Source of the DNA: Flavobacteriia bacterium
GTDB lineage: Bacteria > Bacteroidota > Bacteroidia > Flavobacteriales_D > Crocinitomicaceae
NCBI GenBank assembly: GCA_009924735.1
Contig: RFQZ01000010.1
Coordinates: forward strand, 1-64,000
DNA length: 64,000 nt
Direction of reading: 5' to 3'
Shown piece after piece: positions 62-8,659 of the stretch. The position numbers and the translations under genes were made by a program. Under the pieces are notes generated by a model that ran no database searches, was not told the DNA's origin, and was given only the letters and a program-made list of their open reading frames with translations. The first letter of the stretch is position 1. Every line of letters begins with the position of its first letter.

Positions 62-1237
62 ATGATTTTAAATTGTCTGAAAAACGGGGAAGTTTACCAT
101 TGGAATAAAGAACGGTTCAAAGCTTCAATAAATTTTTCTTGGATTGCAGAAGATGGAAATTTGTTTCCTGCACCAAATGCACAACTTATACTCTACCCTA
201 AATATCCCGAAGTTAGATTTTCAGGATTTTTGGCGAGATGCCAAAATCCACCGTCAGCATTAATGACACAAAGACTTGCTGACAGGCTTTTATTCTTTTC
301 AGTAGCAAAAAACGGAACTATTTTGGGTTACGTTGCAGACCCAAATTCTGAAATTGCAAATGAATTTGCAAACCAACAAAATATAACAAAACACGGAGTT
401 TTTGAAATTATTGAATTGCCACAAATAGCAAACAATAAAGCTGATTTAATTAATGAATTGCTTCGTATTCATCAATTGGGTTGGATAAAATCAAAACGAC
501 TTGACCGACTTGGAAATATTATGGATTGTGAAGCACCAAATTGTGGCGGTTACACTTTAGAAGCTGAATTAGGAATTACACCAAATGGATATTCAGAGCC
601 TGACTTTTTAGGATGGGAAGTAAAACAATTTGGCGTTGCCAATTTTGCAAGAGTGAACTCTGCAATTATAACTTTAATGACACCCGAACCAACTGACGGA
701 ATTTATCGAACTGAAGGAGCTGTAGCCTTTTTAAGGCAATATGGTTATGCAGATAGAACAGGAAGAGAAGACCGAATAAATTTTGGTGGTGTTCACAAAA
801 CAGGTATTCGACACCCATTGACAAATTTAGAAATGCAATTAATTGGTTTTGACGCAGAAAGTGGTAAAATCAGAAACACAAATGGACGCATTTCATTGGT
901 TGATATAAAAGGAAATGAAACGGCATCTTGGAGCTTTGCATCATTGCTTTTACATTGGAACAGAAAGCACAATCAAGCTTGTTACGTTCCTTCACTTTCT
1001 GAAACGGTTAACGAAAGACAATACAAATACGGAAACAATATAATTTTAGGAACAGGAACGGATTTTCAACTTTTTCTCGGACAAATGGCGAACGGTAACA
1101 TTTATTACGACCCAGGTATAAAAATGGAAAATGCTTCAACAAAGCCGAAAATTAAAAAACGAAGTCAGTTCAGAATTAAGTCACAGGATTTACCAAACTT
1201 GTATAAAGTAAACGAAGTTTTAGACATAACGAAATAG
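62..1237 (+). CDS. MvaI/BcnI-type restriction endonuclease
   Basis: Predicted type II restriction endonuclease of the MvaI/BcnI family, which cuts short CC(N)GG-like sites in unmethylated DNA; the exact site cannot be read from the protein. The nuclease domain is in the second half. The stretch around residues 160-190 carries an acidic residue in LEAEL, then EPD and WEVKQ, giving D181, E186 and K188 as a PD-(D/E)xK catalytic centre. The first ~130 residues form an extra N-terminal domain I do not recognise; classical MvaI and BcnI are only about 240 residues, so this 391-residue protein is a long version. The ATG follows an AT-rich leader with no clear ribosome binding site. No methyltransferase is visible. 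One may lie upstream of the window edge, where only 61 bases are available. The gene looks more AT-rich than its neighbours and is followed by a palindromic element, suggesting transfer. Confidence 0.8.
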   Translation: MILNCLKNGEVYHWNKERFKASINFSWIAEDGNLFPAPNAQLILYPKYPEVRFSGFLARCQNPPSALMTQRLADRLLFFSVAKNGTILGYVADPNSEIANEFANQQNITKHGVFEIIELPQIANNKADLINELLRIHQLGWIKSKRLDRLGNIMDCEAPNCGGYTLEAELGITPNGYSEPDFLGWEVKQFGVANFARVNSAIITLMTPEPTDGIYRTEGAVAFLRQYGYADRTGREDRINFGGVHKTGIRHPLTNLEMQLIGFDAESGKIRNTNGRISLVDIKGNETASWSFASLLLHWNRKHNQACYVPSLSETVNERQYKYGNNIILGTGTDFQLFLGQMANGNIYYDPGIKMENASTKPKIKKRSQFRIKSQDLPNLYKVNEVLDITK

Positions 1238-5929: not shown

Positions 5930-6343
5930 ATGAAGCAAAGCTTACAACTTATACACGAAGTAAACCTACCCTCAACAACCACATCGATTACGGAAGTTGA
6001 AACGTTAATTGACAAAGCTTGTGCAGAGTTGAACCTCCACGAGGACCTCTATGGCAACATTTTAATAGCAGTTACTGAGGCCGTAAATAACGCACTCATC
6101 CATGGCAATAAAATGGATGCAAGTCTTATGATTCATGTAGGTGTGTTCGATAACACTGAGTGGGTATGTTTCTCTGTTAAAGACCAGGGGCAAGGTTTTG
6201 ATCCTCTTCAAATTCCAGACCCTACAGCTCCAGAGAATCTTATGAAAGAAAATGGGAGAGGCGTTTTTCTCATGCAAAACTTAGCAGATGAAATGGATTT
6301 TGAAGAAAACGGCACACGGGTAAATATTTACTTTAAGAAATGA
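5930..6343 (+). CDS. RsbW/SpoIIAB-like ATP-binding regulatory protein
   Basis: Small (137-residue) GHKL-fold ATPase of the HATPase_c_2 type, the fold used by anti-sigma factors and switch kinases such as RsbW and SpoIIAB. The N box is EAVNNALIHGN (about 50-60), the G1 box DQGQGFD (85-91) and the G2 box GRGVFLM (109-115), so ATP binding should be intact. There is no histidine-kinase dimerisation domain. It probably controls a partner protein by binding or serine phosphorylation, but no sigma factor, anti-anti-sigma (STAS) or PP2C gene is nearby, so the partner is unknown. It lies 9 bases after the DUF4175 gene, and its stop overlaps the ybeY start by four bases (ATGA), indicating translational coupling. 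Confidence 0.85.
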   Translation: MKQSLQLIHEVNLPSTTTSITEVETLIDKACAELNLHEDLYGNILIAVTEAVNNALIHGNKMDASLMIHVGVFDNTEWVCFSVKDQGQGFDPLQIPDPTAPENLMKENGRGVFLMQNLADEMDFEENGTRVNIYFKK

Positions 6344-6768
6344 TAGACTTTACTTACTTTAATCCTGAGAAGGAGGCAGAGACAAACCTTTTTTTAGTTA
6401 AAACAATCCCATCTTTACTGGCCGAAGAAAACAAAGAAGAAGGAGAGATTTCATTGGTTTTTTGTACCGACGAAGAGTTGTTACAGGTGAACAAAGACCA
6501 TTTAAATCACGATTTTTACACAGACATTATAACGTTTGATTATTGCGAGGGAAATACAATCAGTGGAGATTTGTTTATTTCAACGGAACGCGTAGCTGCA
6601 AACGCAACTGAGTTTGGGGTCGAATTTGAAGAAGAATTGGCACGTGTTGTCTTTCATGGTTTGCTCCACTTATCGGGCTATAACGATAAATCAGAAGAGG
6701 ATAAAGCAATCATGCGCTCAAAAGAAAACCACTACCTAAACAAATTGTTTCACGTGAAACAAGCATAA
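6340..6768 (+). CDS. ybeY: Endoribonuclease YbeY (rRNA maturation factor)
   Basis: Metal-dependent endoribonuclease of the UPF0054 family, involved in 16S rRNA 3' maturation and ribosome quality control. The family signature near the C-terminus reads [11 protein letters not shown]. The two first zinc-binding histidines are H106 and H110, but the usual third histidine (GYDH) is replaced by Asp (D116 or close). I recall this as a lineage variant rather than a defect, since Asp can also bind zinc. The upstream [11 protein letters not shown] strand is also typical. Length (142 residues) is normal. The start overlaps the previous stop. The last codons (LFHVKQA) are built from a perfect parS palindrome, see 6746-6761. 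mnmG follows after 22 bases. Confidence 0.9.
6746..6761. other. parS: parS centromere-like site (ParB binding)
   Basis: The sequence TGTTTCACGTGAAACA is an exact 16-base match to the canonical chromosomal parS consensus (TGTTnCACGTGAAACA), extended by one more base pair to an 18-base perfect palindrome. It sits inside the last codons of ybeY, just upstream of mnmG. Known parS sites are bound by ParB/Spo0J and lie mostly in the origin-proximal part of bacterial chromosomes. An exact 16-mer is not expected by chance in 64 kb, so I regard the site as real. Neither parA nor parB is present in the window. Confidence 0.85.
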
Positions 6769-6790
6769 AAACACCCAACAAAAACTTCTT

Positions 6791-8659
6791 ATGTTACAAA
6801 AATATGACATTATCGTCGTGGGTGCTGGTCACGCTGGCTGTGAGGCTGCTTTAGCTGCAGGTAAGCTTGGAAGTAAGGTGTTGTTGGTGACAATGAATAT
6901 GAACACCATTGCACAAATGAGTTGTAATCCAGCCATGGGCGGAGTGGCAAAAGGACAAATTGTTAGGGAGATAGATGCTTTGGGCGGCGGGTCTGGCATC
7001 GTGAGTGACAAAAGTGCAATTCAATTTAGGATGCTCAATATGTCTAAGGGCCCAGCCATGTGGTCACCCAGAACCCAAAATGACCGGATGATGTTCGCGT
7101 CGGAATGGCGCCTGTTATTAGAACAAAACCAAAACGTTGATTTTTGGCAAGACATGGCAACAGACCTTTTAATTGAAAACAACCGAGCAATTGGCATAAA
7201 AACAAGTTTAGGTATTACCATTTTAGGGAAATCCATAGTATTAACCAATGGCACCTTTTTAAATGGAATTATACACCTGGGAGATAAGCAGTTTGGAGGG
7301 GGACGTGCCGCAGAAAAAGCATCAACCGGTATAACAGAAGCGCTGGTCTCTTTAGGTTTCGAGGCAGGAAGAATGAAAACAGGGACACCTCCCCGTGTGG
7401 ATGGCAGGTCTTTGGATTATGGTAAAATGGAGGTGCAATGGGGAGATGAAAACCCGACAAAATTTAGTTATTGGGACACAAATCCGCTCGTTAAACAGCG
7501 TCCTTGTCACATAACCTATACCAATGAGAAAACACACGACGTACTCCGAACTGGATTTGATCGCTCACCCATGTTTAACGGTGCGATTAAAAGTGTGGGG
7601 CCTCGCTATTGTCCAAGCATTGAAGACAAAATAAATCGCTTTGCAGATCGGGATAGACACCAGGTTTTTGTAGAGCCAGAAGGATGGAGCACCATAGAGA
7701 TTTATGTGAATGGTTTCAGTACTTCGCTACCAGAAGATGTTCAAATGAAAGGACTTCAAACGATCCAAGGTTTTGAAAACGCAAAAATGTTTCGTCCTGG
7801 ATATGCCATTGAATACGATTATTTTCCACCTACCCAACTCAAACATACCCTCGAAACGAAAAACATTGAACACCTCTATTTTGCAGGTCAAATTAATGGT
7901 ACGACCGGTTACGAAGAAGCGGCTTGTCAAGGACTAATGGCTGGAATCAATGCGCACCTGAAAGTTGTTGAAAAAGAACCGTTTATACTTCAAAGAAGCG
8001 AAGCGTATATTGGAGTGCTCATTGACGACCTCATCACCAAGGGAACCAATGAACCTTACAGAATGTTTACAAGCCGGGCTGAATTTAGAATTCTCCTTCG
8101 ACAAGACAACGCGGATCTAAGACTTACCCCAAAGGCATTTGAGTTGGGGATGGTAGGTGAAAATCAAATGAATCAAGTGATGAACAAACGCACAGCTACG
8201 GCCGGGTTAAAAGACCTATTGCGTAAAACAGGAATCACACCTCAATCCGTAAATCCCTTGCTAGAAGGCATAGATTCAGCCCCCATTTCACAGCAAGTAA
8301 AACTAACCAGCATCTTGGTGCGACCCTTTGTTAAGTTAGAAAATCTTGTGGCGCTTTCACCCACACTCGAAGCATATATATCCCAAAACGACATCAATGA
8401 GGAAATTTGTACCCAAACAGAGATACAGTTAAAATACGAAGGCTACATTGAACGGGAAGAGGAAATCGCGATGAAGATGAGTAGATTGGAAAATTTAGCC
8501 ATTCCAGAGGATGTTGTTTATTCCCAGTTGAAAAGTTTAAGTACAGAGGCCGTTGAAAAACTAACAGCCATCGTACCGAAGTCCATTGGACAGGCTGCAA
8601 GAATTTCTGGGGTCTCTCCAAGCGACATTGCGGTATTGTTAATCTACCTGGGGAGGTAA
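6791..8659 (+). CDS. mnmG: tRNA uridine-5-carboxymethylaminomethyl modification enzyme MnmG (GidA)
   Basis: FAD-dependent subunit of the MnmE-MnmG complex, which installs the (carboxymethyl)aminomethyl group at C5 of the wobble uridine in several tRNAs. The N-terminal Rossmann motif [12 protein letters not shown] (9-20) binds [14 protein letters not shown], the [11 protein letters not shown] region and the [10 protein letters not shown] segment are typical of the family. The C-terminal helical domain that docks MnmE and tRNA is present, ending with [12 protein letters not shown]. Length (622 residues) is normal. It closes the DUF4175-ATPase-ybeY operon. The cognate mnmE is not in the window. 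Its location beside a parS palindrome agrees with the frequent placement of gidA near bacterial origins. Confidence 0.96.

Follow-up and report, generated by a model that had tools for sequence, protein, structure and literature searches.

A predicted parS centromere lies in the 3' end of ybeY beside mnmG in a Flavobacteriia chromosome

Sites of the parS type that lie inside genes and close to replication origins are known from other bacteria. Gut species of Bacteroidetes were searched with the canonical 16-bp parS consensus (Livny et al. 2007, as cited in PMC10197239); there, in the sections of PMC10197239 considered here, parS clusters together with skew define the origin, which, placed in this way, does not always coincide with dnaA. 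The Noc-binding site (NBS) is a palindrome of related sequence to which a ParB paralogue binds (PMC7383237). In ParB orthologues the counterparts of Caulobacter R173 and G201 are reported to be absolutely conserved, while position 184 is lysine or arginine in about 28% of ParBs (PMC7383237).

We analysed a stretch of 64,000 nucleotides from a Flavobacteriia bacterium (contig RFQZ01000010.1), hereafter the window, in which TGTTTCACGTGAAACA occurs exactly at 6746-6761. The earlier note had equated this 16-mer with the canonical parS consensus, and the match is indeed exact. It had also placed the site in the ybeY/mnmG junction; strictly, it lies wholly inside the ybeY tail rather than in the junction, and mnmG starts (6791) 29 bases past it. 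Similarly, the residues LFHVKQ, described in that note as the last of YbeY, are encoded by the site, but one Ala still precedes the stop, the C-terminus reading ...NKLFHVKQA. The features of the locus are as follows.

5930 to 6343, plus strand: gene for a HATPase_c_2 protein directly upstream of ybeY, given for context only (Pfam PF13581, E=7e-24).
6340 to 6768, plus strand: ybeY, endoribonuclease of 142 aa, its last codons overlapping parS (Pfam PF02130 YbeY, E=3.1e-29, match ending at residue 136).
6746 to 6761, no strand: parS, a perfect 16-bp palindrome and predicted ParB nucleation site, exact and unique in the genome up to 2 mismatches, with orthologous sites beside mnmG across Bacteroidota.
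6769 to 6790, no strand: ybeY-mnmG gap of 22 bp, which holds a second parS in many same-genus relatives and none in the window.
6791 to 8659, plus strand: mnmG/gidA, 622 aa, flanked by parS throughout the phylum in class, order and phylum samples (Pfam PF01134 GIDA, E=1.6e-159).

At the contig edge, the window also carries a gene for a MvaI/BcnI-family restriction endonuclease (62-1237, plus strand).

The site is rare. It was the sole match in the window at up to three mismatches to TGTTTCACGTGAAACA, and the sole match at up to two mismatches in the whole genome (2,504,476 bases, 99.45% complete, 74 contigs), so the 16-mer is not common away from this locus. By chance, 0.0009 (zero-order base model) to 0.002 (first-order) exact copies would be expected genome-wide. 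A parB is also present: one ParB exceeds the family cut-off in this genome (TIGR00180, E=3e-54), directly adjoined by a ParA reading frame that contains the Walker-type motif KGGVGKTT, on a contig other than that of parS. Alignment to solved ParB structures revealed that this ParB keeps R and G at the equivalents of R173 and G201 (within KSR and SMGHAR) and has a lysine at the position matching 184. By the rule in PMC7383237, its recognition residues are of the parS type.

Comparison with relatives disclosed a close association of the site with mnmG. Within the genus, 34 of 37 genomes (the window's own counted) carry the site with at most one mismatch, nearly all at mnmG and with one to three sites per genome; the three genomes that lack it are 66-88% complete. 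Most members have a pair of copies separated by tens of bases, the first over the ybeY end and the second in the gap before mnmG, and single copies occur in the window, in the close relative L052, and in the group G001/G004/G007/G025. L052 (CAMCWF010000003.1) has a YbeY 91% and an MnmG 99% identical to those of the window, and the label Chryseobacterium gleum of this MAG is doubtful. In the genus members G030 (L044) and G014 (L045), mnmG has a parS-type site on each flank, the first 6 bases ahead of its start and the second immediately past its stop. Similar two-sided layouts were seen in several other families.

Outside the genus, mnmG loci were chosen irrespective of whether they carried parS. 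A site within one mismatch of TGTTYCACGTGRAACA was present at 50 of 57 order- and class-level loci and at 25 of 28 further loci from the phylum. The order- and class-level loci, 265 kb in total, held 93 such sites, and a reversed-pattern control found none in the same 265 kb. When 39 sampled order- and class-level genomes were scanned in full, 57 perfect TGTTYCACGTGRAACA sites were recovered, of which 53 lie no more than 1.3 kb from mnmG (median distance 17 bp). Two of the four exceptions are in G080, on a contig where mnmG was not found, and G074 and G094 have one each, 88 and 43 kb from mnmG, respectively. As a separate observation, G097 (L262, one 3.9 Mb contig) has no parS-like site at mnmG, though its mnmG is about 15 kb from dnaA; genome-wide it shows only two degenerate sites, both far from mnmG.

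The genome to which the window belongs is split into 74 contigs, and its parS is probably origin-proximal judging from relatives, two of which show this placement and a third roughly so. In G038 (a single contig of 3.98 Mb) the GC-skew minimum in sampled stretches falls at the contig junction (about 3.98/0 Mb), with parS at 17 kb; in G054 (a single contig of 4.10 Mb) the skew, again from sampled stretches, changes sign between 3.50 and 3.69 Mb, with mnmG at 3.64 Mb. G017, the closest of the three and a member of the genus, has a broad minimum at about 0.95-1.03 Mb on a 2.2 Mb contig, with parS at 1.12 Mb, i.e., 90-170 kb off.

We rejected dnaA as an origin marker, since it lies about 445 kb (G038), 570 kb (G017) and 1.66 Mb (G054) from parS. 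Both parB and dnaA are far from parS in G038 and G054, unlike the textbook layout. On G054:C1, parB (1.970 Mb) and dnaA (1.983 Mb) are about 13 kb apart, and mnmG/parS at 3.639 Mb is about 1.66 Mb away; in this genome parAB and dnaA appear separated from the centromere and the skew origin. A DnaA-box cluster near parS was sought in the window and not found. In G017, the 5 kb or so upstream of parS (G017:C1:1113608-1117968, L051) contain four TTATNCACA DnaA boxes, the surrounding 420 kb having about one per 21 kb, and this group is a possible oriC.

Taken together, a sole genomic site where about 0.002 would be expected, the presence of one parAB pair, the clustering of sites at mnmG phylum-wide, and a position of mnmG/parS at or near the skew origin in three relatives argue that the 16-mer is the single parS centromere, of the ParABS type, of the window chromosome, as the earlier note had proposed for the site; we put the probability of this reading, drawn from sequence comparison, at roughly 94%. 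From established family knowledge (review PMC7333895), we infer ParB binding, spreading and segregation at 6746-6761. Specifically, a dimer of ParB, whose gene lies elsewhere in the genome, would bind the 16-mer, load in a CTP-dependent manner and slide into ybeY/mnmG and neighbouring DNA. ParA would then move the ParB-parS complex, so that the origin region segregates first.

The copies of parS lie on either or both flanks of mnmG and hop between flanks, frames and gaps within tens of bases, even where parAB and dnaA are distant. This distribution raises the idea that the Bacteroidota centromere is tied to mnmG itself, perhaps by a functional link such as a coupling of ParB loading to mnmG transcription rather than by shared origin ancestry. 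We consider such a tie conceivable, if rather unlikely.

The site can be read in any of the three frames at the end of ybeY. One frame gives FHVKQ/H, seen in the lineage of the window and in three further families (G042, G055, G071), four families in all at the class level; another gives VSRET in most of the genus; and the third gives SFT and then a stop at the TGA within the site itself in G067, a genome of the same family whose site has one mismatch. YbeY ends ahead of the site in G027, G030 and G014, and elsewhere among relatives the site is intergenic or just past the mnmG stop. Parsimony on quick MnmG trees, in which many forks are weakly supported, counted six changes of state within the genus and eight for the class-level sample. 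By an AU test (p=0.82), a single origin of the FHVK frame in the genus was not rejected, and two separate origins there gained no support.

An excess of conservation at the nucleotide level, suggested earlier as a check, was borne out: among the six genomes with the FHVK frame, identity over the 16 bases is 100%, whereas the rest of ybeY is 65% identical between pairs, and there the residues that agree use the same codon in only 53% of cases. The accompanying claim, that the same YbeY C-terminus recurs under double selection, was not supported, as relatives keep the DNA but read it as VSRET, stop within it, or carry it outside ybeY. Were the C-terminal FHVKQ itself functional and conserved along with the centromere, its retention in all six FHVK-frame genomes and its occurrence, as FHVKQ/H, in three other families would follow; however, FHVK is the forced encoding of the palindrome in that frame, other same-genus genomes do without the peptide, one same-family genome terminates ybeY at the TGA, and the Pfam YbeY match stops at residue 136, short of the full tail. 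We therefore consider a doubly selected coding site very improbable. Since the DNA site is kept through all three frames, selection is demonstrable on the DNA rather than on the protein tail, and the tail peptide is a by-product of the predicted centromere. The locus clearly illustrates how an element in the DNA can overwrite a protein tail that is dispensable.

Another possibility is that the palindrome works as RNA: within the ybeY-mnmG transcript it would fold into a hairpin or act as a terminator and so control mnmG expression. A hairpin with a 6-bp stem and a 4-base loop could form, and the upstream copy is often about 8 bases ahead of the mnmG start. Yet the frequent variant TGTTCCACGTGAAACA disrupts a stem pair (C5-A12), sites are found equally directly past the mnmG stop or hundreds of bases off, and no T-run follows the palindrome in the window, which leaves this explanation with scarcely any credit. 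An operator for a transcription factor recognising CACGTG is the least credible alternative, to the point of being negligible: the palindrome does have a CACGTG core and lies upstream of a gene, but the full 16-bp match to parS, the one to three sites per genome in the genus, the position at or near the skew origin, and the fitting ParB residues all speak for ParB.

With the parS reading, a single predicted centromere is identified for an uncharacterised Bacteroidota lineage. The combination of mnmG and parS could serve as a practical origin marker where dnaA misleads, and the locus offers a clean natural case of one DNA element passing through all three frames of a gene end, separating DNA-level from protein-level selection. 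In the literature searched, which did not include the main survey (Livny et al. 2007), we found no description of a strict mnmG-parS tie across Bacteroidota or of the use of all three frames, and we claim no priority for either.

Compared with the described systems, the window site is distinct from NBS, which differs from parS at two positions where the window site matches parS, and at the switch positions the window-genome ParB carries R and G rather than Q and R (PMC7383237). With the gut-species sites of Bacteroidetes it shares the consensus, whereas the sections of PMC10197239 considered here do not name mnmG as a flanked gene or discuss reading frames. Chromosomal ParABS parS (review PMC7333895) is alike in its identical consensus, an origin-side position in relatives, one parAB pair, and few sites per chromosome; it is unlike in that here a single site sits in the ybeY tail, and the parAB pair is on a different contig and lies far from parS in relatives with contiguous sequence. 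The window site is thus a further predicted chromosomal ParABS centromere, a member of an already known class.
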